DNA of 64,000 nt from Isoetes taiwanensis (Eukaryota; Streptophyta; Lycopodiopsida; Isoetales; Isoetaceae). A program made the translations under genes and the position numbers. Under the pieces are notes generated by a model. That model ran no database searches. It saw only the letters and a program-made list of their open reading frames with translations, and had not been told where the DNA came from. Positions 1 to 43,778 of the stretch are shown here, one piece after another. Where the stretch lies: the NCBI GenBank assembly GCA_021234155.1, contig JAJEKV010000001.1, positions 27,917,768 to 27,981,767 on the forward strand, in the 5' to 3' direction. The number at the start of each line of letters is the position of its first letter. The first letter of the stretch is position 1.

Positions 1-925
1 GGCCTCTCCCAAAGCATCTTTCAGCAGCTGTTAGAAGTAGGTGAGTCAGTTGAACAGATTGCTATTGAAGTGTGGGGAGTTGCAGCAGTCCCTCCAAATT
101 ATGCTCAAGCATCCAGGCATAGGTCTCTGCACGGTCGTAATCCAGGCGCAGTCGGGGCACCTGGAGTGTTGAGGCATATGGATGCACGAGAAGCCTGCCA
201 ATGTACATGCAAGAACAGGGGCCGGTGATCTATGTCCACTTCCTCGTCCCGAGTGTTTGTTCCAATGCAAAAATGGGTAATCAGGTGCAGATCCTGTTCC
301 TCTACCAGCACGTAATCCACCACACTGGAGCCACCCACATGGTTCTCCAGTCTACAAGTGCAGCGGCTGGAAGACGGCCATTGTGCCAACCCATTACAAA
401 TAACCAGGTCAACGATACTACCCAGCAATAACAACTACCTATCATAGCGTGAAATATGGTTGTCATCTAATATCCTTGACCAAACCACCTCCGTGGGGTT
501 CAACTGTAAGACGTCCTCTGCCATGGGCTCAAATTGTAGGACCTGCTCGGTTCCTGTACGTGCATTAAAGTCTCCAAGTAACATGACATTGCCCACTGTT
601 TGTGTTGTTGTATGTCATCATATAGATCGACATAGGGCTCCAATCTATCCATCCCCGAATGAGTGTTATAGAAGTTGCTCTCGGCATGTAGAAAGTAGCA
701 TGTTGCTAAGAAGAGGATGCTGCCACTGTCATGTTGCACACGCATCTACAAGTAGCGATTGTACCTGTCTATTTTGTACAGCGAGACTGACTACACCAAG
801 TTTGCATGATAGTAGCAGGCTACCCCCCATGCCCTCGCTTGCCCGTGCACTCGTTGAATACTGAGAAATGCAGATAGCCTTAGAGGTCCTGCAGTCTGTG
901 CCCTGCATGTTTCTGTGACGTTCCA
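1..925 (-). pseudogene. LINE-A fragment, endonuclease part of ORF2
   Basis: The minus strand encodes pieces of a non-LTR retrotransposon apurinic-type endonuclease in several broken frames, including a segment with DYVLVEEQDLH and a DIDH motif followed by LFLHVHW, the place of the usual SDH active-site motif. The DNA is clearly homologous to 42964-43778 and, at its high-coordinate end, to 57143-57250, so the same LINE family occurs at least twice in the window. Protein order places the element's 5' side at the high coordinate. Similarity stops near 925, where unrelated sequence starts, and the other side runs off the window edge. Frameshifts and stops make this a dead copy. It would have nicked target DNA for target-primed reverse transcription. 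Confidence 0.8.
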
Positions 926-3891
926 GTACGATATACGGTCTCAAGACGTATACTGTACTGCACCGTCACGCGTACACGCCATTTCAAACGACGTGTACGC
1001 CGACATGTAACCAAGCAAGGGCGCCCTAGGGGGCAACTTGAAAGGGTGCGCACACTTAGCAAAGTGCACACCTTAAACCTTTAACCCATTAAGAGCAGAC
1101 CAAGGGTCATGGAAACCCTAAACCTAACTGAGAGCCTATGTAAGGTAACCAAACCCTAATTCTTTCCTTTTCGTCCACGAACCTTCCGAGCACCAGTTCG
1201 CGCGCCTGAGTCAAATCCAACTCCCAAGATCTGCCCGTGCGCCCTAGCTCGTCAGATTCTCCTTCCGACCGCATCCCCAAGCAGAACAGCGACATGGACG
1301 CATTCGGATCAAGAGGAGTGAACCAGGGATCAGGTACTTAGTCGATTTAATAGCCTAAACCGTATTCCAGCCATCGAACCAATAGGTTTAGCCTATTAAA
1401 TTACCCTTAGTAGCCAAGCAGATCTCCAGATTGACCCTAACTAAAGAACCTAACTCTATGATATAGATTAGTTCTTATTCTTTAGTTCTATGATGATGTG
1501 ATGGATGGATGAATTCTGTGGACTCATTGTATTGGGAAGGGGTGTAGAGACTTAAAGCTTAGTAGTTGATGCTCCTAGCTAGCCTCCTTAGCACACTGTA
1601 GTTTCGGCCTGTGTACAAGAACCACACCTGGTTGTGGGTGAAGGGGCCAGACTGGCTCAGAAGGAGGTTCGTGTTCTGACTCTTGACCGATCCCTCTGGT
1701 GTGTAAAGTCTACCGGGGATCAATGTAGACTAGGTCTAATGGCTTGCCACTGAGTGTGGGTAAGGCATGGGCTCGACACCCGTGGAGTGGTGTTCACTTT
1801 CCAGTGGGTTAAGTCGAATAAGGGCAGTGGCCCTCTAGTCACCTTGAGTCAGCATGGAGACCTCTGGTGGGAGTGATCCCTACCTGCCCCATCGGAACTG
1901 GGGAGATGCAACCCAGGAGTAGCCCCTTTGGCTATGCATCCTGTTGACCCTAAACCTGGCTTAAAGGTCAACCACAAGGAACCAATTCAAGTTTTCACTC
2001 AAATTGGGGTTAGAACCTCCAGATCACTTGAGGTGATAAGTCTATGCAAGGAAATCCCAAGAACAAGTTCAAAAAGTTCGAGTTCTATACCTTTCCCATT
2101 TCCAAAAAATAGTACCTTTGCCAAAACAAATGTGGTGTCGAGATGCAGATTGATTTTTTAAGTCAGATGCAATAGACTTGGTCAAAAAAGTGGTAGTTAA
2201 CCAACAGTAAAACCTCTGACCAAGTCAGAGACTTAATCTGTGAGTTATTCGAGCTCAAAGTGGGGTCAAATTTTGGTCAATAGAGGTCAAATGTAGAAAA
2301 CAGTGATCAGAAATTGAGATTTGGAGTTGCCAATCATCTTTTTGAGAAATTCCCAAGTAGATAGGTTGCAATGATGCTAGGGAAGAGGGGCAATCAATCA
2401 AATCTTCATTTGGATATGTAAAAGTATTTTTTGTGGCTAGATTTGGCAAAATACAGTCAAAACTGTCCAAACCCGAGAGCAATTTTTTTGAATTTGAGCT
2501 ATACTTGGTATTTTTGAATGATTCCAACTCCTTTGGACTGCACAGGTTCTAAGGATAGATGGCAAGTGGTCCAAAGGAATAGAAAAACACACTAGAATTT
2601 TCTCAGAGATATTTTGTAGCAAGAATTGTAGAATAATATATCGTAGATGGATTTGACAACTTGGCAATCGATTTGAATTGATATGGAAGTAAATATATCA
2701 TGATAACAGAATATAAGGATGCTTCATAGCTTTAAATCACAGGAAAATAATCTTCTCAAGTCAATAAATAATTTTTGAAGGTAATGTCAATCAGATCTTG
2801 TGGATCCAATTGAGGAGAGCTCAAGAACTTCAAGGATCGTCCAGATCTTGCTCAGCAATGATCAATGTAGGATCTGAATACTTCTGGGCCTTCAAATTTT
2901 TCTCTGTCTTCGTTTCCCATGTATATAGATTTAGATTTTAACGGTTCCGGCATCTTAGAGCTTAAATTTAGGCTTGATTGGATGCTTAGGGGCGGGAATA
3001 CGGAAGTAGGTAGTTTTCAGAGTCCAAGGCTTCCATTCCGGCATGATTCGAGCAGTTTTCCAATTTTAGGGTTCTTCACTGTATTTTTTCCAGAATTTGC
3101 GCGATACGGTGGCCGTATTTTTGGGAGTATAAACCAGGAATATGCTGTATTTAGCCATTTAGAAATGTTAGGCCATGGTTTCAAAGGGTGCCTTATAAAA
3201 TAATTAGATAGATAGATCAATTGAGGAGATGGCAACCCTAATTTTTGAGGAATATGCTAGGCGTAGATACCATGCATTGGGATATTCCATGGGTAGCATG
3301 AATATTTAAGGCACAATGGTGGACAAAGCAAAGTGGTCATAAAATTCCAAGCTAGAAATGGGCTAGGGGTATTTATGAAGGTGTGATAAGAGTGGGAAAA
3401 GGGATATGAAATAAGGAGGCGAAAAGAATTAAGCAATCAAGGTGTGATTTGGCAAAAAAATGAACAAGGGAAAATATAAGCATAAGGGGAATATGACTAG
3501 GGAAATGGGGGTAAGAATATGGATAAAAATGACTAGGAGGTGGAATCTAATGCCATGGGATCTTCCAAACTTTTAACTTCCAATCTTCAAAAATTGTCTT
3601 CCAAACTTCATAACCCAGAATCTTCTAGAGCATATTCTTGACTAAGCACTTTGACCTTAAATAAAGTACCTCATGTGAGTTTTGAACCTTGAGCACATTG
3701 TTGTCTTGTAAAATGAACATCCTTTGACCTTCGTATCAATGTTGACTACCAAGTCCTCTTTTGACTTAGCCTTCCTAACTTCAACAAATAAACCATTCAA
3801 TTAGTATGTTGCCCTTTGGGGCAACATCTCGCCAAAAAGAAAATGGCTGGTCCCCTCACCCACAAGGGTCTTCAGCTTGGTACCAAGGTAT
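926..3891. other. non-coding stretch, no recognisable gene
   Basis: I see no supported gene. The first 150 bases are GC-rich with repeated GTACACG/CGTGTAC motifs, 1480-1930 is of mixed composition, and 2160-3890 is AT-rich. Open frames here are short and lack family motifs. It may be LTR or leader sequence of a decayed retroelement, but no matching second copy lies in the window to prove it. Confidence 0.5.
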
Positions 3892-7498: not shown

Positions 7499-7501
7499 TT
7501 T

Positions 7502-21175: not shown

Positions 21176-21216
21176 GAGTTCTGAGATCCAGGAAGATCTT
21201 GGTAGGACCTCCAAAA

Positions 21217-21786: not shown

Positions 21787-22206
21787 CATCCGGCGGGCTA
21801 CAGTCAGGTCCCAACACTCTTCAACCTACTCTGTAAAGTGTGCACAGGAGGGGCGGATGGAGTGGACAACCCTATGCCATGTTCTCATGCCAACCAAATC
21901 CATTGTCATGATTCTGTCTGCAATGAACTCTGGAGACCCAAGCCGGCAGTCATCCCCTGGAGTCTGAGCCTTGAATAGGAACCCATTTGTACTGTGCTGA
22001 TCTTTGTCTATGCAGATGTTGATGCGCCACCCTTCGAGGTGGATATATGATGACTATGTGTACTGACATGTATGTTTACGCTTCCGCAGCTAGGTAGGCC
22101 CTGAGGGAGACGGGGTAAAATGACCCCTTCATTCTTCCCACTGGAACCCAGTACGGTTACAGTGATATGTGGAGGGCCCTGTATCAGCATGGAGCTGGTA
22201 TAGGGG
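21787..22206 (+). other. left part of a chromovirus-type LTR remnant, split by an insertion
   Basis: No gene is seen. Joined across the element at 22207-25241 (target duplication AGGGG), this runs into 25247-25301, which ends GGGACGTCACA, a typical Ty3/Gypsy chromovirus LTR end, followed by TGGTATCAGAGC. I infer it is part of one older LTR. Its start may have been cut by Gypsy-2. Confidence 0.5.
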
Positions 22207-25241: not shown

Positions 25242-25246
25242 AGGGG

Positions 25247-25314
25247 ATGAACTCCTGTTTGTATACGGTGAGTGCATCGTATACGAGTAGGGGACGTCAC
25301 AGTGGTATCAGAGC
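25247..25314 (+). other. LTR end plus tRNA-iMet primer-binding site of a dead chromovirus
   Basis: The sequence ending GGGACGTCACA (to 25301) is followed after one G by TGGTATCAGAGC (25303-25314), the standard complement of the plant initiator tRNA-Met 3' end. Together they mark the 5' LTR end of a Ty3/Gypsy element. No gag follows, so the element is truncated right after its leader. Confidence 0.75.
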
Positions 25315-25469
25315 AATGTTCTTGGAGACCAAGAGCAAAGCACTGACCATGCTCCCAGTAGTACTAACTTGATAGGATCCTCAAACCTCGAAAAATGGGA
25401 ATTTTTTTTTCTCATTTTTGTAGTATATGCTAAGCTAGTAACAGTTAAGTGAATTAGAACATAAAAAGA

Positions 25470-25919
25470 CTAAAATTAGTGAGCCAAAACCTTCTTAAGA
25501 GGTCGGAAACATGGAGACACAACAATCTTAGGCCTTTTTTTATGAACCTGTTTCATAAGTGGCAGCAGAAGAGAGAGGCTCACGTCCTCTTGCTCCTGGA
25601 TTTCACAAATTACCCAGTGGCAAAGCTCGATGAGTTACTGAATATCTTTGGCCGAAGCAGGGTGCAGGATCTGACCATGCAGGATTTACTTGATGCACAA
25701 TGAGAACTTATGACTGAAGTATTAAAACTGTCTATGATTTTGGTACTTATATATGTTTTCTGTATCTGACTATGATCAGATTTTTGGCACTGCTCCTACT
25801 ACTAGGAAAGTGCTTTTTACCTACTGGTATACCTTCTATGGTATATTCCTTATTTATGTAATCATTTAGTATGAATAGAAGTCACACCTTGCCTCCAAAA
25901 AAAAAAAAAAAAAAAAAAA
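25470..25919 (+). other. poly(A)-terminated segment, unrecognised
   Basis: A 74-codon frame (25479-25703) ends with a plausible protein tail (VLLLLDFTNYPVAKLDELL, then DLLDAQ stop). It is followed by 200 bases resembling a 3' UTR and a run of about 22 A residues ending at 25919. This may be the 3' end of a reverse-transcribed message or of a retroelement. I do not recognise the protein, and no target duplication is visible. Confidence 0.35.
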
Positions 25920-29503: not shown

Positions 29504-29539
29504 CTAGAGCCTAGTTGCACACACACAACACCAAGCTGA
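29504..29539 (-). repeat. DIRS split repeat Y2 (36 bp, terminal)
   Basis: CTAGAGCCTAGTTGCACACA and 16 further bases are identical to 30190-30225. This is the terminal partner at the element's 3' end in minus orientation. Confidence 0.85.
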
Positions 29540-30034: not shown

Positions 30035-30189
30035 AAGAGGAGGCGACGAAAGGAGAGACGCTCTAAGACGGCTGATGGGGAAATCCAAGAGGGGGTATGA
30101 TATAAATACACGAAGGGGGGAAAGACACCTCAACTAGACTCAAGAAGCGGATTTATCTGCTTATCTCAAAACGCAGATAAATCGTACTT
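30035..30189 (-). repeat. DIRS split repeat X2 (155 bp, internal)
   Basis: Nearly identical to 36155-36309 (one difference noted, AAAGACACC versus AAAGAAACC). It contains a TATA-like TTTATATC on the minus strand and a short palindrome, ATTTATCTGC...GCAGATAAAT. It joins Y1 directly at CGTACTT/CTAGAGCC, giving the sequence expected at a circle junction. Confidence 0.87.
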
Positions 30190-30225
30190 CTAGAGCCTAG
30201 TTGCACACACACAACACCAAGCTGA
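30190..30225 (-). repeat. DIRS split repeat Y1 (36 bp, internal)
   Basis: Identical to 29504-29539 and directly adjacent to X2. The adjacency X2-Y1 mirrors the ends X1 and Y2 of the element. Confidence 0.85.
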
Positions 30226-30272
30226 AAAAAGAGGCAGGAGGAAGAGGTGACTCATACCGAACAAGAGAAATG

Positions 30273-31376
30273 CTATTGGAACTCCGAGGATAGGCGGCAG
30301 ATAGCGCGGGCATCCTCACGACCCAGGCCCAGAGAGCGAGAGACTAACAGTTGCTGGTGGAGGGAGGGATTGACATAACCATCCTTGGCGGTCTCGGAAC
30401 GCCAACGACCATGGGCCTTAAAAAGGCGATCTGGTACATCCAAAGCAGCTGCCGTGGTGGCACCGCCACGACGTCCGGAATGGGTACCAAAGGAGGAAGG
30501 GTCTTCACCAATGGCAGCAAGGCAAAGTTTGAACCAAGAGCGCAGGGTAGAGTATGAGACAGGCTTCTTGCGGATAGACACACCATGTGGAGAGACGCGG
30601 ACACCACGAAACAGGTGCCCCCCAGGGGGGCCGTCTAACCGACTAAAATCACCTAAAGCAATAAGGCGCTCCAAGAGACCCACGGGACAGTAGAAACCAC
30701 CCAGGCGTGCAATGGACACCCAAGACCCCATACCATGCTGATCGGTTTTGGAAGACTTAATAAAAAGGCTAGCGTGGGACGGAAGGAGGAGAATCTCCTC
30801 CCAACGCAAGGCGAGCAGCTCGGCACTACGCAAAAAGGCAACAAAGGACAAGACCAAGGCACAACATTTCATTACATCGGGCAGGGTCGCAGCAGGGGAT
30901 GCGAACTTATCCATGACACGCCTAACCAAATGGGGCAGCAAAGGCTTCTTCTTGGCCGCCCGGACAGCTAAGGAACGCTTGGCGGAGTCTCGGACGAGGT
31001 CGACAAGGGGGTGGTCAGTGGGCTTGCGAAAGCCGGCCAAGGCATGATGGAAAGCAATTGCAGCAATAGACGTCTGAAACACAGCGAGTGAGGGGGAGGT
31101 GGCTAAAAGACGAGTAAGGAACAGGCAAACAGAGAGGGGCTCAGCAGGTAGGGGAACAAGGTGCTTGGACAGGCACCAACTTTTGAACTCTGACCATGGC
31201 CGTGCATAAGACTTCAAAGTGTTACTAGAACGAGACCCAGCTATACGCTCTTGTAAGGCCTCTTTCAAGACAACAAGCTCATCATCCCCATCACCAAGCG
31301 AGCTCCAAAAATTAGACGAGAACACATCTGAAACACAAAAGCAACTCACCGTTAGAAGCCACCAGACGAAGTGCAA
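30273..31376 (-). CDS. DIRS-order tyrosine recombinase
   Basis: A 367-codon open frame encodes a phage-integrase-fold recombinase that would insert the circular cDNA without target duplication. An N-terminal SAM-like core-binding domain (about residues 55-150, SSNTLKSYARPWSEFKSWC) precedes the catalytic domain. The catalytic residues are visible: Arg in LALRWEE, then HSGRRGGATTAA (His and Arg), AHGRWRS (His) and DGYV (Tyr nucleophile). The true start may be about 20 residues inside, since the first residues overlap the preceding RNase H frame by 65 bases in another frame. No stop or indel is seen, so this domain looks functional. Expression probably needs frameshifting, re-initiation or splicing. 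Confidence 0.87.
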   Translation of the reverse strand: MHFVWWLLTVSCFCVSDVFSSNFWSSLGDGDDELVVLKEALQERIAGSRSSNTLKSYARPWSEFKSWCLSKHLVPLPAEPLSVCLFLTRLLATSPSLAVFQTSIAAIAFHHALAGFRKPTDHPLVDLVRDSAKRSLAVRAAKKKPLLPHLVRRVMDKFASPAATLPDVMKCCALVLSFVAFLRSAELLALRWEEILLLPSHASLFIKSSKTDQHGMGSWVSIARLGGFYCPVGLLERLIALGDFSRLDGPPGGHLFRGVRVSPHGVSIRKKPVSYSTLRSWFKLCLAAIGEDPSSFGTHSGRRGGATTAAALDVPDRLFKAHGRWRSETAKDGYVNPSLHQQLLVSRSLGLGREDARAICRLSSEFQ

Positions 31377-33270
31377 TCAAAGGACTTGAAGGCTTGTGAC
31401 ACGGAAGGGTTGACCGAGTCCCAGGCCGTAAGAAATGTCCACCAGAGGGAAAGTACAAGCTATCAACAAAAGCAGGATGCCAATTGCCAAATTCATCATG
31501 CAGGGCAGGCCACCAAGGAGCGGACTCCCAATGGAAGATGACTAAGGTAGCGTCCGCAGCGCAGGCTAGAGCAAACTTGAAGGCTTTAAAAACCAAGGCG
31601 GGCGGGGGAAAGCAATAATTATTGAGGCCGTGCCAGTTCTGAGCAAAAGCATCTGGGGGGGAGGCCGAGCAAGGTGACAAATGCCAGCAATTAAAGTTAG
31701 GTAAACGGTGGTTGTCGAAGTTCGCAAAGCGGTCCCAATCATGAGGGCCCCAAGCAAACTCAATAAGGCGAAAGGCTAAGTCCGTCAAACTATAATCATC
31801 GTACTCTTCAAGCTTGGAAAGGTAATCTGCCCATTGGTTTAGGGTACGGGGTATCCAGGCCGGTTTCAGGACAAGCTGATGTCTCAAGCACAAGGAAAAA
31901 ATCTTGACGCACAACAGATGTAGGTTGGGGACCCGAGAGCCACCTCTAGACAGGATAAAGAAAGCATTCAAATTATCGCCATAAGCTATGATAGAACGCC
32001 CCCGGAGAGAAGCAGCATGATGGTTCAGATAGTGAAGAAGGCAAGACAGCTCGCGGAAGGTTGAAGACATAGATTGTTCAAGAGGGGTAAACTGCCTGAG
32101 ATTGGCAAGATCACGAGCTTCGGACACCCAAGCACCCCAGCCAGAGCCACTAGCATCGTAAAAGAGAGAAACCACCGGGTGAAAGGACTCCCAAATATGG
32201 GCAGAGTTAAGTAGGTCAAACCAGTCACCCCAAGCTCTGATCTCGGCCATAGCTAAATGGGACAGAGGCACCAAACCGCCCTAAGAGGTAATGGCGCATG
32301 TGGCAGCAAACAGGTGGAAGGAGAGGATCTTGCAAAATGGCCCAAAGACTAGACTGCAGGAGGTGATCATACCCAAGAAAGAGGCGAGTTTGCGAGCTTT
32401 GACCAGGTGGCTGTCGCGAAGGCTGCGGGCAAGGTCCAAAAACTTAGAACGACGCGAGGGAGCTATGGAGAGAAGACCAAACTGAGCATTGACGACAAAC
32501 CCTAAGAACTTGGCCTCGTGAGAAGGTAGCAACTGACATTTATGAAGGGCAACGACGAAACCGGCCGACTCAAAATCGGCAAGCACTAGCCGCCGGTGGT
32601 CAAGAAAGGAGGAGGGACTACAAGCAAAGAAGAAGTCATCGACATAAGGAATGCAACGCAAACTCATGGACCGCCACCGCTTGATCGAGCCGACGATGAC
32701 TTTGGTGAACACAAAACAAAGCGGAGAGAGGCCGAAGGCAAGGATGTGAACATGTAAAAGGAGCCATCAAAGGAGAAACCCAAATACGTCCAAAACTGAG
32801 GGTTAATGTCAATGTGGTGATAACCCGAATGCAAATCTAAAGTAAAAAGATAGTCACCCGGTCGGACGGTCAAGGCTATGCTACTGATAGTCTCATAGCA
32901 AAAGGAGGTTTGAGCCAGAAAGGTATTGAGATGGCGCAAGTCGAGGATGAGACGCAGCTTGTTGTTGGCTTTGGGCACCACTCCCAGGGGTGAGCAGAAA
33001 AATGGCTTGTGCTCGGAAACAATAGCAGAACCAGCCGAGATCAAGTCCTGTATGGCAGAGCGGACAAAAGCAGCCTCTCGCAAAGCAGACCGATGATTGG
33101 GGCTAGACCAAGGGTGGGGGGGAGGGGAAGAATGCCAAGGCAGAGCATAACCATTCCGGATCCAATCTAACACCATAGCAGAGGTACAAAAGGACTGCCA
33201 AAAATCAAAGCAATGCCGCAGGCGATGTCGGAGAAAGGTAGTAGGGGGGGGAGGGGGGCCTTGAAGTTCT
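31312..33270 (-). pseudogene. DIRS-order reverse transcriptase and RNase H
   Basis: Three consecutive minus-strand frames form one protein. The RT N-half (33176-32664) has CSPLGVVPKANNKLRLILDLRHLN and FTLDLHSGYHHI. After a one-base loss near 32735 the frame continues (32712-32281) with the catalytic PYVDDFFFA. An in-frame stop at about 32281 precedes the RNase H (32274-31312) with YDASGSGWGAW, RELSCLL, YGDNLNAFF and NQWADYLSK, all four acidic positions present. A C-terminal extension to 31312 (WDRFANFDNHRLPNFN, WWPALHDE) is like the domain that follows RNase H in DIRS elements. Two lesions make it a pseudogene; both could also be sequencing errors. Confidence 0.85.
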
Positions 33271-33732
33271 GAAAAACAACAAAAGACAAAGCGATTACCG
33301 CGTTAGACAAAACAAAATGAAGCCTAACTTTCAGGGGTCAGCATAGGGGAAAAAAAAAAAACCTGGGAATCAACACAAAGGACGACCTACGACTAACAAG
33401 CAATGTGTGCGAAAACCAAGCGTAGCCTAGGTGAAAACCAAGGAGGGCAAAACCTGACCCATAGCTCACGCAAACAAGAACCCAACAAACGAGGGGAGAC
33501 TGAACCCTAGCTACCCCTAAGACAAAACAAAAATGGAGGCACCCAACAAAGATAACGCGACCATGCAAAAGGGCAACCAAAGAAAAAATGGGCCGAGCGA
33601 CGGGCCAACAGACTCAAGGGGACAAACTAGGCACCATGCAGCAAAACCCCATGCGTACAAGGAGGGACGACTAAGCAACGTTCGAAGAGGACTAACAACA
33701 AAAATGGTCGTTCTATCAAACCCCATGCGCAC

Positions 33733-33990
33733 CAGGAGGGACGATTAAGCAACGTTCACCTGAGACAATGCAAATAGAGACATGTAACACCCAACGCCAC
33801 TTATCAAGGCTACCAAACGTGGGAACACACAACCTCAAAGAATACAACCTGGGCGAAGTACAGGAGGGACGAATAAGCAACGTTCACATTGAGACACTGC
33901 AAATAGAGACATGCAACATCCAACGCCACTTATCAAGGCTAACAAACGTGGGGAACACACAACCTCAAAGAATACAATATGGGCGAAGTA
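33733..33990. repeat. two tandem 128-130-bp repeats inside the DIRS element
   Basis: Unit 1 (33733-33860) and unit 2 (33861-33990) both run from CAGGAGGGACGA to GGGCGAAGTA with a few differences. A partial third start (AGGAGGGACGACTAAGCAACG) is at about 33660. They lie between gag and RT in a non-coding spacer (33271-34233). Confidence 0.75.
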
Positions 33991-34233
33991 CAAACCGCAT
34001 ACCAAAAGAAGGGGGCCAACCCAAAAAATGATAGGAGACTAAGCAAACCAATTGCAAAGAAAAAGGGGGGGACACGAAACCCCCAATGCACGAAACCAAG
34101 CTAGGCCACCCCCAAACACGTGATGCAACTAAGAAATTCCACGTCAAGCAAGGGGCACCAAGACAAACCACACTCAAATTATCAACTAAACAAAAAACAA
34201 CTATGAATAGCAGCCAACGTTCATAATGTTGAT

Positions 34234-35001
34234 TCAAGGGTTAGCTACAGATGGGCCCGTGCCGGGAAAACCAGGTTTATAAAACAAAGCATTGGTTGGG
34301 TTAAAGTTTGGTAGTTTGATCTGCTGGGGGCTAGGGGATAATAAAAGTCTTGCAGGACAAGCAGCCGCACGATGATCCGGTCTCTGACAAATGAAACACA
34401 ACAAAGGATTAGCAGAGGATCTCTTCTTGGAGTTTTTGGGGTCCCATTCCATGGCCAACTTCCGAGCAGCACGAAGCCTCTTATCATCATCACTAAGTTG
34501 GACCAAATCACCCAATTCATAGCAATCAGCAACTTTAGTCCCTTCACGGTCCCTAATGAACACAATCTGCTTCCTATTACGTATCAAAGTATTACCTTTA
34601 TCAATCAACTGCTTGACTGGGGGCTCCAAAGCCTTCTGAAGCCGAAGCTTGCTCTCCAAATCTGAAAACACATCTTCTACCTCATTCAAGAAGTCAAACT
34701 GCTTCATGTTGCCCTCGAACTTCAAGGCAGGTGTGCGACTCTTCTTGCTCTTACGCTCAACATCCTCCTGCAGCGCTGAAATCCTAGCCTCCAAATCCGC
34801 CAAATAATCTGTCTTCGCATTGGCCAGCCGAACTTCCATGGCCCTTGCCCACGCCGGGGCTTCAGCAAGATCCGGGGCAGCTGTTATAGGTGGGGCAGCT
34901 GTCGCAGGTGGAGCAGCTGGGGCAGGAGGGGCACTCGATGGGCCAGCCTCATCACGGCTCTCCAAGGGTCGCTTACCAAGCCTAGTGCTTCCACGAGTCA
35001 T
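34234..35001 (-). CDS. DIRS-order gag-like protein
   Basis: A 255-codon open frame upstream of the RT in element orientation. It has an Ala/Pro-rich N-terminus (residues 20-50), a charged helical middle with AMEVRLANAKTDYLADLEARISALQ cut here to its start AMEVRLANAK, which looks coiled-coil-forming, and a single zinc knuckle CFICQRPDHRAAAC (CX2CX4HX4C) near residue 206. It should bind element RNA and assemble particles. The start chosen is the first ATG (MTRGS). About 1.1 kb of leader separates it from X1. It looks undamaged. Confidence 0.8.
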   Translation of the reverse strand: MTRGSTRLGKRPLESRDEAGPSSAPPAPAAPPATAAPPITAAPDLAEAPAWARAMEVRLANAKTDYLADLEARISALQEDVERKSKKSRTPALKFEGNMKQFDFLNEVEDVFSDLESKLRLQKALEPPVKQLIDKGNTLIRNRKQIVFIRDREGTKVADCYELGDLVQLSDDDKRLRAARKLAMEWDPKNSKKRSSANPLLCFICQRPDHRAAACPARLLLSPSPQQIKLPNFNPTNALFYKPGFPGTGPSVANP

Positions 35002-36154
35002 CTATCAAGCCAAACCGTCAGTACAACAAGAAGACAACAACTAAGAACCTGTAAACAGGCAGAGAATTAGCACCGAAACTCGAGCTGTGGAGCTAGACCA
35101 GCTACAAGGCAAACACAAGAGACAGAGCAGAAAGGGAAGGATGGAACACCCAAACATCGAGAGACAGCCAAACTCTAGAAACTTGGAGCAGCAAAACTGA
35201 GGTCACACAGAGGCCGGAATCCTGAGACCGAGAAAAAAGGGGGGCTCCAACTCGCAGAGAAGGCCGGGCAGATCACCACGGCCCGCCGAGGTCAGAGCTG
35301 GCCGGTTCAAGGGGGGAGCTGGGGAAACTAAAAACGAACAGGGAGCAGAGCAAGTGGGCCGGGTCTGCCCAGAGAAACCCTGTAACTGTAAACAGAGGAA
35401 TAGAACCAAGAACCAACTCACGGATAGACAGAATTCGAAACAGGCTCCAAAGCAACCAGGTATGGGCAAATGCCGCCAAGTGGTCGGCCAGCTACTAGCT
35501 ATGCTCGCTTATATCGCATAAGGCGCATTATGAGAAATCGAGAACATAAACAAAAACCGCATTACAAGTCAATCCCGCAGAGCCGAAACTGCCAAACTAA
35601 CAAAGAACTACACCAAAATCCTACCAGGAGGAACCCGCCCAATCGTAGCCAGGCTGAGCAGGCCGGGTCCAAACATGCAGGGAAGTGAACTGAAAGACCG
35701 GCCAACTAGCAGCATCCGGCCAAGCGGCTAAGCAGAATCCAGCCAGCGAGCCAATCCGTTCCAACAGGGGACGCAACAGAGAAACTATGGGAAGAAGGAG
35801 AAACTATGGGAAACAGGAAGCCTAATCTGCAGGCGAAATTGGACACCGGGGAACGAAGGGTGGCAAACGAACGGGCACAGGGCGGGCAACAAGACAAGGA
35901 AACTAGGGAACTCAAACGCCCACCAGAAGAAGCCTGCCTGCAACCAAACTGACTGAAGAGGGACTCTAGACCAAACCGACTGAAGAGGGACTCCGCAGCA
36001 TCCATAGTCCCATCCATAGTCCCAACAGCTGGGGAGGCGCCATAGGAAGGCGATCTCCAACTTGAGACATGAGAAAGTTCTAACCAGCAGGGCACGCCCA
36101 GCCAAACATACCAAAAACACAGCGACGTACCTGGGAAGGAGTGCTACCGTCACT
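35002..36154 (-). other. DIRS leader between X1 and gag
   Basis: No conserved protein is seen. Near 35945-36000 there is a short tandem repeat (ACTGAAGAGGGACTC twice) and ATCCATAGTCCC twice. It probably serves as 5' untranslated leader. Confidence 0.55.
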
Positions 36155-36309
36155 AAGAGGAGGCGACGAAAGGAGAGACGCTCTAAGACGGCTGATGGGG
36201 AAATCCAAGAGGGGGTATGATATAAATACACGAAGGGGGGAAAGAAACCTCAACTAGACTCAAGAAGCGGATTTATCTGCTTATCTCAAAACGCAGATAA
36301 ATCGTACTT
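36155..36309 (-). repeat. DIRS split repeat X1 (155 bp, terminal)
   Basis: Partner of 30035-30189. It forms the 5' end of the element in minus orientation, with a TATA-like motif in the strand of transcription. Unit B of the host duplication resumes at ATGATGCTTG (36310). Confidence 0.87.
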
Positions 36310-37812
36310 ATGATGCTTGAACATTAATGAGGTACAACCAAAAGAAAGGGGGTAAACCTCATGTATGCGTAAGATAATTTTGGACAGCCAGCATTCTATG
36401 TCAAGGCTAGGCTTTCCAGCCATCATGGCAATCCTAGGAAAGAGTATCAGATCACAAAACATTTATAACAACCATATAGAGTACCATTTTGATGTAATCA
36501 TTTAAACAGCTTCAGATGTGCCAAGCTCCAGTCCCCATTTGCATGCCAACTCCTAAGAACTCCTAATACACTGGACAAAAGGAAAACATTAAGAGGAGAA
36601 GCCCGTACCTGCAACCAATCAATACATCATTAGCCTGATAAGGGTAAAGATGCAAGGGCCAAAAGGTACCTTAGGCTTCTCGGTTATCAACCGATCACCT
36701 AATGTAGTCCTTTTGCCCAAAGATTAAAAATATCTTAGAATCTATTGACATAAATCTTGACAAATAAGAGAGCATAATCAATATATTGGATACAAATATA
36801 GAAAAATCCCGAGCGAATGTATGACGATTCAGAGGCAGATTCTGCCATAAGCTAAATATAAGCCATTAACAGGAAAAGAGGGATCAAGTTATAGGAATCA
36901 ATCTTATAGATTCATCCTATGTTCAATGAATTAGCTATAGTTTTAAAATACCCATTTCCAAAATCATCCTGCAGTAATTAGCACAGAAGCATCAAAGTGC
37001 TGCTAGCAATTATTTTTAACAAGTGCATGCTTAAGCAAATCCAGTACAAGCGTACCCATAATGTCATACCTGAATATAAGGAAATGCATTGCATTACCTG
37101 GTTATTTGCGGAGTTAGATGCATAGTCTTCTTCTTGCATTTGAGTGATATGAACAAGAGCAGCTTGAGAAACTTCCCCTTAGCTTTGTCTACATTTCCAA
37201 CATGGTGTATGCCATTAGGCAACGGTAGGACACAGCCAAGCCACTGATAGCTCCACTATTTCCTGAGGTAAGCTCCATAATTTGAGGCGAAGAATCCACA
37301 TGCAAATGGATACATACGTGCCCTATTTTTTTACAAACAGCGGAATCCAGAAAGCAGAACTCAGTAACAGCGCCGTTCAAGCATAAAATATGCCCTCATC
37401 AGCATGAAAGATTAACCCTGAAGCTACTACTTGTAGCATGCTGTTCCGGCCAAAAACGAGGCCGGATTCAAGGCAGCTTCGAACCCTAAATATGAATGAA
37501 AATATGACCTATTTTGGCAAAGCCCTAGTAAACGTCATAAAATGCCCAGAAGTGTATTTTTCACTATATGTTCTCCTTACAAAACATGAGGTATACAGTA
37601 ATTTGATACGGCTACAACTTATTGGACCAGTATATAACTAGACCATGGGCATACCGCACCCGGCTTCAATAAGGTATGGCAACAATATCTAGGTAAGATA
37701 TGCCAACAATAAGCTTTCATATATATTTAGAACAAACCTCCGATTTACTTCTATCAAAAGATCGTACATTAAGGTGCACAGTTAAATTAATCTAATCGTG
37801 CAAGCTTTATAT
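36310..37812. repeat. tandem duplication, unit B right part
   Basis: Matches 26456-27957, including the exon-like piece (minus 37395-37088, here with a one-base deletion). It stops at an A-rich run (37815-37834). From there sequence unique to the histone locus begins. Confidence 0.85.
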
Positions 37813-37840
37813 ATTAAAAAAAAAAAAAAAAAAAGTAGGG

Positions 37841-37907
37841 GTCTCACACGTCGTGCCAGGAGCAATAATGAAAAGTTCATTTTTGAGCTGGGCGCAACGT
37901 GTGAGAC
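37841..37907. repeat. 67-bp palindrome P1, upstream of the histone variant
   Basis: An imperfect inverted repeat with outer arms GTCTCACACGT and ACGTGTGAGAC, inner arms around GCCAG/CTGGGC, and a centre AATGAA...TTCATT. As RNA or DNA it would fold into one long hairpin. The same 67-bp design recurs at 38055, 39725 and 39925. P1 and P3 share the AAAAGTTCATTTTT centre. Confidence 0.9.
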
Positions 37908-38054
37908 ATTGGGCCAAAAACACCTTGAAAAGTGATGAATTTCAGAAAAGTAACATGGTAATTCGAATTTCAAGCTAAAAACTAGCTAGATTAGTATGTT
38001 ACATTCTTAAAAACATGCTTAGAGAGTATAAAATTTGGCATCAAAATCCACCAT

Positions 38055-38121
38055 GTCTCACACGTCGCGCCAGGAGCAAAAATGAAACTTTCATTATTGA
38101 TCTGGGCGCAACGTATGAGAC
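38055..38121. repeat. 67-bp palindrome P2, proximal promoter
   Basis: Same design as P1, ending 100 bp before the TATA box. Its centre (GAAACTTTCATTATTGATC) matches P4, not P1. CGTCGCGCC and GGGCGCAA contain cores like E2F sites and ACGTCG resembles the plant histone hexamer ACGTCA; this is inference only. Confidence 0.88.
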
Positions 38122-38221
38122 CATGAGGTTAGAAAGATCTAAATTAAGCCATGTAATAGGTTAATAAGTGTCTTAGCTCACCCAAAAGAGTAGTTTGAAA
38201 TTTGACCTAAAATTGCCCATC

Positions 38222-38229
38222 TATAAATA
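38222..38229 (+). promoter_or_regulatory. TATA box of the histone-variant gene
   Basis: TATAAATA in the context CCATCTATAAATAGACC, 103 bp before the start codon. This places the transcription start near 38255 and leaves a 5' UTR of about 75 bases. Confidence 0.7.
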
Positions 38230-38262
38230 GACCGAGGACCCCATTTCTACGTTCTTCCTTAG

Positions 38263-38298
38263 AAAAAAATCGCCCCCCCTTGCTAAGGCGATTTTTTT
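38263..38298 (+). promoter_or_regulatory. predicted 5'-UTR hairpin
   Basis: AAAAAAATCGCC (38263-38274) pairs perfectly with GGCGATTTTTTT (38287-38298) around a 12-base loop. It lies between the expected transcription start and the ATG, so it could affect translation. The A and T runs make the stem weak at its base. Confidence 0.5.
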
Positions 38299-38331
38299 TG
38301 GGCTCGACGCCGGATTGACGAGCTGTCAAAC

Positions 38332-39582
38332 ATGGCCCGGACGAAACAAACTGCTAGAGTTCCTCCAGGTGACACAACTTCCAGCGCCCTACTCCAAGAA
38401 ATGCTTCGGGAGCGTCTTTTTCACCAAGGAGGCCATCCTTCATCTAGTGAAGGAACCGAGTCCGAAGAGCACCCCGACAACCCTACCAACCAAGGAGGGG
38501 ATGAGACAGAGGTCGAGGAGGATGCACACTCCGATGCGGGGACAGAAGTCCTCGACAATGAGGAGTCAGACGTGATGCAGCAGGTTTTTGAAGAAATGGA
38601 GGAGGAAAAGAAGAAGAAGGAGGAACAAGATCGGGCGGCCGAGGAGCATGAAGAACAGAGAGAGCCGACCCTCGATCCAGCTGAAGAAGAAGAATTAGCG
38701 GCGTGGATCAAAAAGCATGAAGCGAAGGAACACCGCCGGAAAAAGAAGAGGGAAGAGAAGAAAAGGAAGAGGGACGAAGAGGAAGCCAAAGCAGCAGAGG
38801 AGCTGAGAGTGAAGAAGGGAAAGTTCGTGGAGGGAGGCCAAAGAAAACTCAAGAAGGCCCCACGCTCCAAGGTCGTCATCCAAGAGCGGCCCGCAGACCA
38901 GCCCCCACCCTCCTCGGATGCCTCGGAGGATGAGGACTTTAATCCCTTCAACAAAGAGGCGGGATCTTCGAAGGACCCTGCCAACGAGCAGACAACACCT
39001 GACCCGGAGCAGCCCGAGCAGGTGCAGAAGCCCCCACCATACCCGACGTGGGACCGAAACAAAGCGCCGCGGCCAGCCCGAGAGGCGTATGTGATAGACC
39101 TCGTCAAGGTCTATCAGAAGAAACTAAGGGAGCACAACGCCTTCATGGCGAAGTGGGAGGCGTACAACACATACTACCAGCAACACCGAGTAAGAACGAT
39201 CGAAGGGGGGCATCCGACGAAGAAGCAGACTCTCAAGCCACCACCAGAGAAGCCCAAGCCTCCTAGACCACCAGGCAAAAAGAGAACCGGCATAAAGGAG
39301 AGCGAGAGGAAAGCCCTGAGAGAGATCAGGCATTTTCAGCGTAGCTTCGGGTTCTTGATCCCCCGTGCACCGTTCGCCCGACTAGTCCGAGAGGTAATTC
39401 AAGAATACAACACGGAGATGAGGGTGACGGATGAGATGTTGCTGGCACTGCAAGAGGCAACAGAACAAAAACTAGTGCAGCATTTTGAAGATTCGACAGC
39501 CTGCACAGTCCATGCAAAGAGGGTGACACTAATGAAGCAGGACATGCATCTTGCTAGCTACATCAAGGGAGAACACCCGTAA
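38332..39582 (+). CDS. long-tailed histone H3 variant (416 residues)
   Basis: One intact intronless frame in a good start context (AACATGGCC). Residues 1-9 are identical to the start of histone H3 (ARTKQTAR after Met), but V replaces K9 and no K14, K27 or K36 context follows. Then come an acidic stretch (37-80), a charged coiled-coil-like region (82-165) with a likely nuclear signal (KKKREEKKRKR, 137-147), an acidic patch SEDEDFNPF (198-206), a Pro-rich segment, a helix around 251-286, and a Lys/Pro linker (295-325). Residues 326-416 form a full H3 fold: ALREIRHFQR, LVREV, LALQEATE, HAKRVTLM, QDMHLA. C391, H394, R397 and D404 match C110, H113, R116 and D123 of the H3-H3' bundle. The K56 position is R337 and the K79 position N360. 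Usual H3 length is about 135. Role is unknown; nucleosome incorporation is inferred. Confidence 0.88.
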   Translation: MARTKQTARVPPGDTTSSALLQEMLRERLFHQGGHPSSSEGTESEEHPDNPTNQGGDETEVEEDAHSDAGTEVLDNEESDVMQQVFEEMEEEKKKKEEQDRAAEEHEEQREPTLDPAEEEELAAWIKKHEAKEHRRKKKREEKKRKRDEEEAKAAEELRVKKGKFVEGGQRKLKKAPRSKVVIQERPADQPPPSSDASEDEDFNPFNKEAGSSKDPANEQTTPDPEQPEQVQKPPPYPTWDRNKAPRPAREAYVIDLVKVYQKKLREHNAFMAKWEAYNTYYQQHRVRTIEGGHPTKKQTLKPPPEKPKPPRPPGKKRTGIKESERKALREIRHFQRSFGFLIPRAPFARLVREVIQEYNTEMRVTDEMLLALQEATEQKLVQHFEDSTACTVHAKRVTLMKQDMHLASYIKGEHP

Positions 39583-39724
39583 AATTTTGTACAAGATGGA
39601 AAATTTTGTTAATGTAAAGAGTTTTGACAAAGTAACATGTGTAATCTTGCTTAATTGAGTTCAGTTACTGAGTTCCAGCTTTTGTTTTAGTTAAAACTGA
39701 CATTTTGAACAAAATTGAGAGGAT
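39583..39724 (+). other. 3' flank of the histone-variant gene
   Basis: AT-rich sequence of 142 bases between the stop codon and palindrome P3, with AATGTAAAG near 39611 as a possible weak polyadenylation element. No metazoan-type histone stem-loop is seen, as expected for a plant gene. Confidence 0.4.
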
Positions 39725-39791
39725 GCCTCACACGTCGCGCCAGGAGCGAAAATGAAAAGTTCATTTTTGGTCTGGGCGCAACGTGCGAGAC
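39725..39791. repeat. 67-bp palindrome P3, downstream of the gene
   Basis: Same length and design as P1, with three or four differences (CTCACACGT at the left arm, ACGTGCGAGAC at the right). Its centre equals that of P1. Confidence 0.88.
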
Positions 39792-39924
39792 CATGCCCCA
39801 AAAGTGCCCAAAACAGCTCCAAATCGATCAAATAAGGGGTCAATTATGCCTAACTCGATGAGTCCAGCAGAATTAGACCCTTATATCACCCAAATTGGAC
39901 AAGTTTAACCCATTTAGAGTCAAT

Positions 39925-39991
39925 GTCTCACACGTCGCGCCAGGAGCAAAAATGAAACTTTCATTATTGATCTGGGCGCAATGTGTGAGAC
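39925..39991. repeat. 67-bp palindrome P4, downstream of the gene
   Basis: Almost identical to P2, including the centre. P3 and P4 are spaced 200 bp start to start, P1 and P2 214 bp, while the sequence between them has diverged. Confidence 0.88.
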
Positions 39992-40158
39992 CTCTCAGCA
40001 AATTCTTCTCCATGCCATATCCAAATGACTTCCAGTTTGTTGCAATAGGTATTCATTAGTTAATCTTAGCATGCTCAAACCCCAAAAGTAGTCTTCAAAT
40101 CCTCATTTGGACCTCCTAATAGGTCAGAATTGCCCAACCCCAATAAATTTCTAAGTCA
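39992..40158 (+). other. promoter-like remnant, possibly of a lost tandem histone copy
   Basis: After P4 come short blocks in the same order as between P2 and the TATA box: TTAAT, TTAGC, CCAAAAG with AGTAGT or TAGTCTT, ACCT, AATTGCCCA, then ATAAAT. No histone frame follows; Gypsy-5 gag starts instead. Similarity is moderate and judged by eye. Confidence 0.4.
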
Positions 40159-41849
40159 ATGAAAGACAAGGATAAAGGAATGAAAGACAAGGACAAAGGC
40201 AGGGTGGCAACAGCCAACTTGAAGGGAGCCGCACGCATCTGGTGGAAGGGTTATGCCAAGGCCCATGGCTTAAGCAGAGATGGGTGCAGATTCAAGAAGT
40301 TTTCTAAAGCCTTCAAGCGCCATTACGTTCCACGAGAACACAAGTCCAACATGATGCAGCAGTTTTACAGGTTGCAGCAAGGGTACAAAACAGTGCAGAA
40401 GTACACTGAAGAGTTCATGAGACTAAGGCTGTATGTGCCCAAGTTGAGTGAAAAGCACGCAGTGGAGAGCTACATTGAAGGACTGAACGAAGAAATCCGT
40501 AAGCTTGTAAGGGCAATAGACCCCAAGACGGTATCAGAAGCAGAATCCAAAGCAATCAGCTTGCAAGGATCCGGGCCTCAGAACAGCGCGCAGAAACAGC
40601 CGTACTACCAGGATAGAGGCAAAGCAACAGGGAGTTATAGCCCTAGGGCAGCCAGCCCAAGTCCAGCAAAATCCCCATATAGTGGCAACCAGGGGAGACA
40701 GCAGGAAAGGAAGCAGGTGTCCTTCAAGGACAAGCAGGAAGGGTCGAACTACTCGAAAGCAGTACGATCCTTCTTACAAGCAATGCCCAAAGAAAAGAGG
40801 CAGGAGTGTATGGAGAAGCAGCTTTGCTTCAGATGCTTTCAGACAGGCCACAGAACAGAATTGCCCCTTCGTCATGAGCTCAGCGCTAGCGGAGTTGGGT
40901 GGATGGGACACTCCGTCTGACGACGACGGCGAGGCAGCGCGCGATTACATTGAGGGTGAGTGCCACATTTTTGCTGCTATAGATACAGAACAGGCAGAGA
41001 ATCAGTATAGAGTAATTTCCACAATAGGGAAGGCCAAAACCAAGTCCTTCATAGTCCTAATAGACTCGGGAAGTAGCCACAACTTCGCTTCCCCAAGGAT
41101 GGTCGACATGTTGAAGTTGAAACCCTTAAAGTCCAAGCCAAGGCCAATAATCTTGGCAAGCGGAGCAGTGAGACAAACGGCAGGGAAGAGGATCAATTTC
41201 AGCATTGACTTGCCGGGAATTAATATCCCGATGGGAGCAGAAGTAATGGGCATCGGCAAGTACGACGTAGTGGTCCATTAAGCACCTTCGAGGTGTGTCA
41301 TAATAAAATTGAATACCTGCCCTAGGTAGCTTCTGTATCATAGTCGTCCCAGTTATAAACCGGTAAAGAAAAAAGTTTGGAGAATCTATAGCTTTCAGAA
41401 GTTCACCAATTACTCTTGGAGTACCTTGGACCAGCAGGGGCTATCATTGATTGTGGAAAGCGGAAGATGACCCTCACAACGCCCGACGGCAAAGTTATTG
41501 AGATCACAGGTAAAGAAGTTGCTCCCATCATGCAGTGTATGTCTATTAAGAAGCTGCTCAAGTCTATCAAGAGCGAGCAAGTAGCATACATCTTCAAACT
41601 TGAGGTTGAAGAACCCGAGTCGGAGGAAAGCAAGGAAGACAAAGTGCTCAGCAAGTTGCCCAAGCAAATAGCCAACTTGATCACGGAGTTCCACGATCTC
41701 TTCCCAGATGAGATCGAGCAACTTCCTCCTTACAGGGGAGTCGAGTGCGAGATAGCACTCGAACCAGGAACCAAGCCGACGAGCAAGGCTCCGTATAGAA
41801 TGACGACGCAGGAACTAACGGAGCTGAAGAAGCAATTGCGAGCATCTAG
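40159..41849 (+). pseudogene. Gypsy-5 gag, protease and RT start (truncated)
   Basis: The gag frame 40159-40920 shows AARIWWKGYAKAHG, FKRHYVPREHK, YTEEFMRLR and a zinc knuckle CFRCFQTGHR. A frameshift near the knuckle passes to 40682-41281, which holds the protease motif VLIDSGSSHNFAS and a stop after VVVH. The frame 41416-41853 holds the linker to RT (LPPYRGVECEI, APYRM) and stops where LINE-B begins. No LTR is seen on either side. The first 20 codons contain a duplicated MKDKDKG motif. This gag differs from the Gypsy-1/2/3 lineage. Confidence 0.8.
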
Positions 41850-43778
41850 GTGACGTTGCATGTCCTCTGAAGTATAGGCCAAGAGGTCGACATCGTTAGC
41901 ATATATGAGTTGCCGGATTGTGTGATGCATGAGATGGGTGCGCGCACCTCCGTGCTCAGAAAGCCAGGCTTCCAGCTGATCAATGTATAGGCCAAAGAGT
42001 GTGGGGGACATGGGGCAACCCTGACGTACTCTAATACTACTGACTACCGACTGTCCTGATGATGTGATACGTCCTAAGCATGCCTCGTATAGCCTGTATA
42101 TTCCGTTCTGCAAGTCAACGGGGATCCCCAAATGCCGCACCGCAGGGCACACCGCGGTCAAAAGCGTTTGTGAAATCCACGAAACAACAGTACAGGTTTT
42201 GCCGGCGATTCTTGTTATCCTCAATCAGTGTGCGCAGAGTGAAGATATAATCAATGGTGGAATGCCTGGGCCGGAAGCCTGCCTGTGTCAGAGCCCACAC
42301 ATCTGCCTCTTCTGCCCATATCATCAGCCGCTGCTCAAGGATGCCAGTCAACAGTTTTGCAAAGAGAGAGCTGACTATAATAGTGCGATTGAGGGCCCCA
42401 TGCCTTGTATATGGGCACAACTCTACTAGTGGTCCACTGCAGAGGGAAGCCTTCTTGCAATGCTTTATTGAATAGTGCCGTGAGGACAAGCACCGGTGGA
42501 GGCCCAGCCCACTTCAGAAGTTATGCCTGCATGCCATCTAGATCTGTTGCCTTCCCATTAGCTAGGCATTGCAGGCCCATGATGACATCCCCCTCTATGA
42601 TAACCAGAGCCAGGTCCATCTGTGGAGGCATTGTTGCCCCGGCCTCCGAGCATATCGTGAAGTTGTTGCGAGTACTGTACCCATTGCTCCGAGGTGATGT
42701 TCCCTATGGGTTGTACAACCTTGCTCAATACCTTTCTCCAGAATGTCCTGGGATGCTGATCCAGAAGACTGAACATCTGTTGCTGGTGCTCTGCGAGATA
42801 TCTGGCTTTCTTGTTCTTGAGGAAGGAGCGGTACTGACCGATGGCCTGTGGGCAGAAGGTGGGATCAATGACTTGCCGGAGTCCGCGTTTGATCTCTCGA
42901 CACTCATCACTGAACCATCTATTGCGGGGGAAGGTGGTAGTAGTGCCCGAGGTCCTCCATGAGTGGCCTCTCCCAAAGCATCTTTTAGCAGCTGTCAAAA
43001 GCAGGTGAGTCGGCTGGATAGATTGCTGCTAAAGTGTGAAGAGTTGCAATAGTCCCTCCAGATCGTGCTCAGCATCCGGGCACAGGTCTCTGCACGGTCG
43101 TAATCCAGGCTCAGCCGGGGCACCTGGAGTGTCGAGGCAATGGATGCACAGGGAGCCTGCCAATGTACATGCAAGAACAGGGACTGATGGTCTGAGTTCA
43201 TTTCCTCGTCCCGAGTGTTTGTTCCAATGCAAAAATGGGTAATTAGGTGCAGATCTTGTTCCTCTACCAATACGTAATCTACCACACTAGAGCCACCCCC
43301 GTGGTTCTCCTGTCTACAAGGGCAGCGGCTGGAAGACGGCCATTGTGCCAACCCATTACAAATAATCAGGTCAAAGATACTACCCAGCAACAACAACTGC
43401 CTGCCATAGCATGAAATATGGTTGTCATCTGATATCCTTGACCAAGTCACCTCTGTGGGGTTCAACTACAAGACGTCATCTGCCAGGGGCTCAAATTTCA
43501 AGACCTGCTCGGCTACTGTGCATGCATTAAAGTCTACAAGAAGCATGACTTTGCCCAACTGTTTCTGCTGCTATATGTCATCATATAGATTGACATAGGG
43601 CTCCAATCTATCCAACCCTGAATGAGTGTTATAGAAGTTGTTCTCGGCAAGTGGAAAGTGGCGTGCTGCTACGAACAGGATGCTGCCACTTTCATGCTGC
43701 AGGCGCACCCGCAAGTAGCGATTGTATCTGTCTGTTTTGTACAGCGAGATTGACTGCACTAAGATTGCACGATAGTAG
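41850..43778 (-). pseudogene. LINE-B, 3' part: endonuclease remainder and reverse transcriptase
   Basis: In minus orientation, 43465-42995 gives the endonuclease core (CNGLAQWPSS, SVVDYVLVEEQDLH, then NSDHQSLFLHVHW with the SDH motif). 42998-42558 gives the linker (RWFSDECREIKRGLR), and 42489-41730 the RT (QAGFRPRHSTIDYIF, CFVDFTNAFD, RQGCPMSPTLF, IYANDVDLLA, where the usual YADD is YAND). The RT stops early at 41850 against Gypsy-5 and no poly(A) is seen. Several frame changes are present. The 5' part is at 57138-58010; Gypsy-3 separates the two. Confidence 0.83.

Follow-up and report, generated by a model that had tools for sequence, protein, structure and literature searches.

The open reading frame that we call ORF1, which encodes a histone H3-like protein of 416 amino acid residues (38332..39582, + strand), almost certainly belongs, as its first ORF, to a high-copy family of Ty3/gypsy LTR retrotransposons. 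ORF1 has been under purifying selection in the lineage that made the copies. It lies in the window, that is, the whole 64-kb stretch of DNA analysed here (C907:27917768-27981767), within a copy that looks dead as an element, with ORF1 still intact. We tentatively propose that the family encodes a histone that resists H3K9-based silencing, a reading that we hold to be quite possible; beyond the selection on the ORF1 protein, each step of that proposal, its mechanism included, is what we infer.

A first-pass annotation had described one frame at 38332-39582 (+) with a MARTKQTAR start and an H3 fold, and translation bears this out. ORF1 is a single uninterrupted frame of 416 codons plus a stop, with MARTKQTAR at the N-terminus. 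Residues 303-411 score 85.6 bits with the Pfam family Histone (PF00125; E 4.1e-24), where 26.4 would reach the cut-off, and a phmmer search of the PDB aligns nucleosomal H3 to residues 287-415 (E 2e-24). The protein is organized as follows. The H3 tail, A1 to R8, is encoded by 38332..38358 (+), and MARTKQTAR is identical in 16 of 20 rows, the window and 19 other copies. The middle is encoded by 38359..39306 (+) and is defined by its composition, its predicted structure and its dN/dS. The H3 histone fold, residues 326-416, is encoded by 39307..39579 (+) and is defined by the Pfam, phmmer and Foldseek matches and by a lower dN/dS. The middle is made up of an acidic part (residues 10-112), lysine-rich long helices (76-108 and 116-168), a Pro-rich part, a helix at 247-290 and a Pro/Lys linker. 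An AlphaFold2 model made with 49 sequences (mean pLDDT 68.8, pTM 0.30) contains the histone helices plus confident long helices that span residues 76-108, 116-168 and 247-290 and are separated by stretches of low confidence. Nucleosomal H3 takes the top Foldseek rank for this model (E 3.8e-06). VIA-align gives the fold a Z of only 6.9, and since that is below 8, the fold claim rests on sequence. A TATA-box-like TATAAATA found about 100 nt 5′ of the ORF1 ATG (38222..38229, +) is a possible candidate for an internal promoter.

The middle has the properties of coding DNA. Of 20,000 dinucleotide shuffles, 6 leave codons 10-285 free of stops in frame, and 26 leave them so in any forward frame. Codon periodicity is strong, first positions being rich in G and second positions in A. 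The T content of the middle is 11.8%, which is unlike that of plant introns; this and the coding signal rule out an intron there. A remnant of the H3 tail from K9 to P43 was sought in residues 287-325. The best local score was matched by 2037 of 5000 linker shuffles, so that the remnant is unsupported by that test; in one fixed register of the same residues it beats 271 of 271 other registers.

Among the 120 matches listed as relatives of the ORF1 fold, 26 begin MARTK and 6 begin MARTKQTAR. MARTK starts are thus common outside canonical H3. Two database proteins, P0021 (402 aa) and P0023 (395 aa), are built like ORF1, with a MARTKQTARK start, a charged middle and a C-terminal H3 fold near residue 300. 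P0021 and P0023 possibly belong to an element of the same kind elsewhere. Another database protein, P0025, has 424 aa with a 331-residue tail before its H3 fold and is listed in 605 contigs.

One genome, the window's own, of 1,658,258,908 bases (1.66 Gb) in 1110 contigs, was searched for ORF1. The search gave 28,970 first-look candidates, and the scoring of 100 of these gave 140 match rows. At least 11 rows, counted by eye and with the window's included, span residues 1 to 414-416 without a stop, and many other scored rows are partial or stop-bearing. The long rows other than the window's have 63-91% identity, 96% is reached by a 157-residue piece, and some short secondary pieces are as low as 43%. 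The scored copies are on many contigs and are spread along each; on C907 (53.1 Mb), they extend from 3.5 to 49.5 Mb. The first-pass annotation had allowed that an assembly error might have joined the two histone parts, or that no second protein of this architecture might exist. The copies within this genome share the architecture, and a join is very unlikely because the same protein, with tail, middle and fold over residues 1 to 414-416, is encoded at other loci.

Twenty ORF1 copies were read with about 4 kb of flank per side, 9.9 kb each. ORF1 is in all 20, a count that does not gauge its fixation because the copies were chosen through ORF1; relatives of the element lacking ORF1 would go unseen in such a search. 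Among the 20, an LTR is found in 19, the primer-binding site (PBS) in 17, the leader in 18, ORF2 in 20 and gag in 15; LTR, ORF1 and gag occur in that order in 13, and in L020 an LTR is found only after gag. The order in the element is LTR, PBS, hairpin pair, ORF1, hairpin pair, ORF2, gag, protease, reverse transcriptase, RNase H, integrase and LTR. Since the layout of LTR, PBS, ORF2, gag and pol recurs over the copies, ORF1 is the element's first internal gene. The LTR, about 1.5 kb long, has TGTGACG at its left terminus (seen where the LTR begins in 12 of the 20 read copies) and ..CGTCACA at its right end, followed by a G and TGGTATCAGAGC. The latter is a PBS that we take to be of the tRNA-iMet type, and with at most one mismatch it lies directly 3′ of the 5′ LTR in 17 of the 20. 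A set of four hairpins of 67 nt, two on each side of ORF1, is present at no more than 4 mismatches in 11 of 20, and gag starts about 2.3 kb 3′ of the hairpin-ORF1-hairpin unit in most read copies.

The distal part of the element was read 3′ of copy L027, where Pfam identifies RVT_1, RNase H, the integrase domains H2C2 and rve, and SH3_Tf2-1, followed by a second LTR. The two LTR blocks are identical at 1173 of 1200 positions over the part present in both, the first LTR lacking its start. Because the same block recurs after integrase with this identity, the pair represent both LTRs of a single insertion that is fairly young. Copy L013 has gag and protease domains, and L010 has protease and the start of RVT_1; the order of gag and PR-RT-RH-INT was pieced together from L013, L010 and L029, and none of the frames read spans all of it. 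In the one element read, in frames that are broken there, the matches listed are integrase C-terminal and SH3_Tf2-1 ones, with no chromodomain, which would mark the chromovirus branch, among them. About 6.7 kb (L029 790-7468, locus as fetched) separate the integrase frames from the 3′ LTR of the L027 element. ORF2 was defined in L009, on the minus strand of the fetched locus at 1991-3514 (6388-7911 once the locus is turned), as 508 open codons that start MATADFRRWYSASAHAAETN. It has no convincing match: the best Pfam E is 0.11, below the cut-off, the PDB gives none at E 1, and PHROGs gives none.

The copy of the element in the window lies on the + strand and is broken by nested insertions, much of whose sequence comes from mobile elements. 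Its 5′ LTR was traced by blastn with the L009 LTR in three parts: 914..1940, which starts TGTGACGTTCCAG (95.9% over 1030), 21787..22206 (95.5% over 421) and 25243..25301, which ends GGGGACGTCACA (96.0% over 252, leader included). Insertions at 1941-21786 and 22207-25242 split the LTR. The PBS, an exact match to TGGTATCAGAGC, is at 25303..25314. The untranslated leader 3′ of the PBS, recognized by blastn, occupies 25315..25494 and resumes at 37831 after a further insertion, 25495-37830. The unit 37831-40158, made up of hairpins, ORF1 and hairpins, is common to the read copies, whole or in part. Its hairpins, 67-nt palindromes of repeat family D1 that fold very stably, are at 37841..37907 (fold z -7.66), 38055..38121 (-6.79), 39725..39791 (-6.00) and 39925..39991 (-7.93). 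A deletion junction follows at 40158..40177; the ORF2 block, about 2.3 kb elsewhere and without a match anywhere in the 64-kb window, and the start of gag are gone. Decayed gag, protease and the start of pol extend from 40177 to 41839, colinear with other copies. Pfam finds Retrotrans_gag in the frame 40159-40920 (E 1.7e-17), and Asp_protease_2 is just under its cut-off (E 0.00026). Rfam gave no family at threshold over the 64-kb window. A direct repeat that is 87.5% identical, 1-815 and 42965-43778, lies at the left window edge and past the pol remnant. The minus-strand frames at 30273-35001 are presumably a tyrosine-recombinase (DIRS-like) retroelement; Pfam run on four of these frames gave no match. 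A search with the gag ORF of another element in the window, in which 7995 candidates were scored, gave no match at E 1e-5; the host is taken to be a plant from the kinds of element present and the nearest sequences.

Selection was estimated from eight independent pairs of copies, with a synonymous difference below 0.5 and no row reused. The pairwise dN/dS, in which selection and later decay are confounded, is 0.045 for residues 1-9, 0.29 for residues 10-325, 0.115 for the fold and 0.247 for the whole of ORF1. Shifted-frame controls on the same pairs give 1.37 and 1.16 overall, versus 0.13-0.35 for each pair in the true frame. The tail (residues 1-9) has 4.5 nonsynonymous changes per 167 sites and 20.5 synonymous changes per 49; because its synonymous sites vary freely, it is the tail peptide, not the DNA, that is constrained. 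The dN/dS of gag is 0.142 and that of ORF2 is 0.303; both sets of seven pairs rest on six, because one pair compares the reference with its source copy. Copy L020 is omitted from the ORF1 and ORF2 codon tables, L011, L015, L019 and L023 are omitted from the ORF2 pairs, and all five are omitted from the gag rows. In a wider set of 190 pairs, dS is usable for 96 pairs in the fold and 106 in the tail, and the ratios there, 0.051 for the fold and 0.033 for the tail, are less safe than those from the eight pairs. Compared residue by residue with the window protein, the 19 other copies have an identity of 0.977 over the tail, 0.70-0.77 over the middle and 0.90 over the fold. ORF1 can still be read in copies as far apart as about 72% DNA identity, indel-bearing copies having been read codon by codon on the reference for the frame counts. 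In a simulation of neutral drift run to about the divergence seen, the fold stayed free of stops 189 times in 2000 runs, none of the 2000 did so with all 16 of the family-invariant sites tested intact, and the whole of ORF1 was free of stops in 0 of 1000.

The positions that are kept and lost can be followed in a site table of 20 rows, namely the window and 19 copies, with L020 omitted. In the tail, every row keeps A1, R2, K4, Q5 and T6, while T3 and R8 are each found in 19 rows and A7 in 18. The K9 site has V in 16 rows, A in two, I in one and P in one, and K in none, and most of the H3 tail past R8 is unrecognisable. The motif A(R/K)KS, of the K9/K27 type, is absent from the window's ORF1 protein and was found, in any forward frame of 2.5 kb, in one of 20 read copies (L023). 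In the fold, R116, T118, D123 and L126 are kept in all 20 rows, and R83, C110 and H113 in 19 of 20; we take these seven to be H3-H3 and DNA contact sites. At R129 the 20 rows have Y, H, I, V or F instead, and K122 is variable. As far as sequence can tell, ORF1 keeps the target of K4 readers and writers and most of the nucleosome-building core, and drops the heterochromatin methylation site. The loss of K9 could be neutral, in view of the unrecognisable tail past R8 and the motif in L023.

The kind of histone fold was examined by comparison with plant CENH3 and H3, with H3.1 and H3.3 sequences entered by hand. The nearest named proteins are plant CENH3, with 57-58% identity over two thirds of the query, and one unnamed protein has 60%. 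At 27 sites that separate plant CENH3 from H3.1, ORF1 is CENH3-type at nine, H3-type at three and other at 15. Trees in which ORF1 is the sole element copy give it a branch of 1.4-1.6 changes per site; the first version places it nearer H3, weakly (74/81), and the second next to plant CENH3 (92/77), the H3 grouping not being rejected (p-AU 0.169). When 12 other copies are added, ORF1 groups with plant CENH3 (95/87), and again the H3 grouping is not rejected (p-AU 0.219); L009, L017, L019 and L022-L025, whose folds are broken across frames, and L021, whose fold is too short, were left out of that tree. Three reduced quick trees with six other copies put ORF1 between CENH3 and the rest. The fold thus leans to plant CENH3 in these sequence comparisons. 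It is not filed as CENH3 because loop 1 is of H3 length, the C-terminus is non-CENH3, and profile scores nearly tie: all 24 plant CENH3 rows have a loop 1 longer by one or two residues than that of ORF1 and H3.1, ORF1 ends in IKGEHP and 22 of the 24 rows end in PW, and the two profile HMMs give 110.2 against 107.4 bits. The CENH3-type C-terminus (..GxPW) has a role in CENP-C binding.

The proposal of resistance to H3K9-based silencing would work as follows. ORF1 would be made from element RNA or from an internal promoter, and through its intact fold it would pair with host H4 and enter nucleosomes. Its most useful targets would be nucleosomes on the element's own cDNA or on new insertions. There, the tail residues A1-R2-T3-K4 could carry active K4 marks or bind K4 readers. 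Methylation of H3K9 silences plant transposons; nucleosomes containing ORF1 could not receive it, because ORF1 lacks K9 and, as a rule, any ARKS site of the K27 type. The long acidic and basic helical arm may bring in partners from the element or the host, or act as a nucleosome spacer. A retrotransposon with its own core histone, taken from the host H3/CENH3 family and deposited on its chromatin, would then escape heterochromatin by having kept K4 and lost K9. To this fuller scenario we give a little less credence, regarding it as possible but doubtful. If it is true, a high-copy LTR retrotransposon lineage in which selection maintains a core histone would bring a new weapon to the arms race over silencing, and also provide a natural experiment on H3 tail function with K4 kept and K9 lost. 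ORF1 opens a direct question: does an element-supplied, K9-less H3 shield chromatin from H3K9-based silencing?

Other roles for a selected histone have to be weighed against resistance to silencing. By analogy with the chromodomains that tether chromovirus integrase, ORF1 might be a targeting or tethering factor in nucleosomes, perhaps CENH3-like ones, with its long charged arm holding the integration complex or Gag on chromatin. The lean of the fold to plant CENH3 (9 of 27 sites against 3; 95/87 in the tree with 12 copies), the confident long helices of the AlphaFold2 model and the selection on the middle itself (dN/dS 0.29) agree with such a factor. However, no tight target is visible, since the scored copies are spread along whole contigs (3.5-49.5 Mb on C907), and loop 1 is not CENH3-like, nor is the H3 grouping rejected (p-AU 0.219); tethering strikes us as rather unlikely. 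Like the histones of giant viruses, ORF1 might instead condense the element's cDNA or RNA in the particle or the nucleus. An intact histone fold under strong constraint, encoded just 5′ of ORF2 and gag, would suit such packaging, but a lone H3 would require host H4, and the conservation of the exact ARTKQTAR at a dN/dS of 0.045 points to readers of the tail over mere packing. We judge packaging improbable. In a scan of viral contigs with a sequence alignment, bearing on a viral origin of ORF1, 118 patterns matched and tblastn found no relatives, and that origin was rejected.

Two further explanations give ORF1 no role in the element. A host histone mRNA might have been transduced once and carried along as a passenger without function, gene capture by plant LTR elements being known according to the available text of PMC7264820. 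A functionless passenger would not be expected to show a dN/dS of 0.247 overall when shifted-frame controls exceed 1, or to stay readable over copies to about 72% DNA identity; the low dN/dS, obtained from copies found through ORF1 only, makes a passenger decidedly improbable. The first-pass annotation had read ORF1 as a plant host H3 variant with its K4 tail on a long arm. The H3-family protein and its tail are real and constrained, but the assignment to a host gene does not stand: it is contradicted by the high-copy LTR element context and the dispersed copies, and the protein is ORF1 of a Ty3/gypsy element. A host gene for a long-tailed variant of H3 or CENH3, sitting among repeats by chance, would account for a gene-like unit with a TATA-like box whose closest named sequence relatives are plant CENH3, yet it would have to be reconciled with many dispersed copies at one fixed position within an LTR element, and with the LTR, PBS and leader that precede the window copy. 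That reading is scarcely credible. A host CENH3 gene as the identity of ORF1 was dropped once the dispersed genome copies were found, although the fold may have originated from such a gene. The case is also a warning for the annotation of repeat-rich plant genomes, where a long H3 or CENH3 variant can turn out to be the gene of a retrotransposon.

The preferred reading, a histone by which the element resists silencing, can be set beside known systems. Mobile elements that read histone marks through chromodomains, or that act against DNA and RNA methylation, are known, as are histones in DNA viruses. For the element itself, the closest parallels are plant Ty3/gypsy elements with additional ORFs (aORFs), such as Retand, Grande and Ogre, which, by the available text of PMC7264820 and PMC11963269, have the same LTR, PBS, gag and PR-RT-RH-INT with conserved extra ORFs. 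The long region from pol to the 3′ LTR that these texts describe for Retand resembles the L029 790-7468 stretch of the L027 element. The aORFs of the Retand/Grande/Ogre type, as given there, lie mostly between pol and the 3′ LTR and are env-like, antisense or unassigned in function. Unlike these, the H3-carrying element has two sense ORFs before gag, one of which is a core histone. Orchid Gypsy elements described in the available text of PMC9289625 offer another parallel, in that a host-like extra ORF is fixed and kept through subfamily splits, as here; theirs is an AlkB-type m6A RNA demethylase, ours a histone.

Single histones in parasite genomes are also known. According to the accessible part of the review PMC9145170, bracovirus H4, xenomavirus H3 and NCLDV singlet H3-like proteins are host-like histones in a parasite genome, as is ORF1, and the bracovirus and xenomavirus proteins have extended N-tails; such viral histones are believed to enter host nucleosomes. 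Their carriers are DNA viruses or virus-derived (PMC9145170), whereas here the carrier is an LTR retrotransposon; in contrast to the viral histones, the tail of ORF1 is about seven times the length of that of H3 and retains ARTKQTAR. In literature searched by title and the start of the abstract, with subscription literature mostly outside it so that a report in print elsewhere is possible, no retrotransposon-encoded core histone was found. The word "histone" is absent from the main text, so far as available, of PMC7264820, PMC13317346, PMC11963269 and PMC6431247, and "retrotransposon" from that of PMC9145170.

ORF1 resembles plant CENH3 (HTR12) in its HFQ, LIPxAPF and TLMK motifs, in the common MARxK starts and in its variable N-tail; a long, non-conserved N-tail is a CenH3 trait by the available text of PMC4357034. 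It differs from plant CENH3 in having no extra loop-1 residue, no W84, a KGEHP end and a tail of about 325 residues. As an element-encoded protein acting against plant silencing, which is what we propose for ORF1, VANC of the Vandal elements is already described; in the available text of PMC13317346, it recognises short DNA motifs and directs hypomethylation, and, unlike ORF1, it is no histone. Chromoviruses, with their chromodomain integrases (PMC9289625, as available), are gypsy elements that engage histone marks by reading them, whereas here the element supplies the H3.
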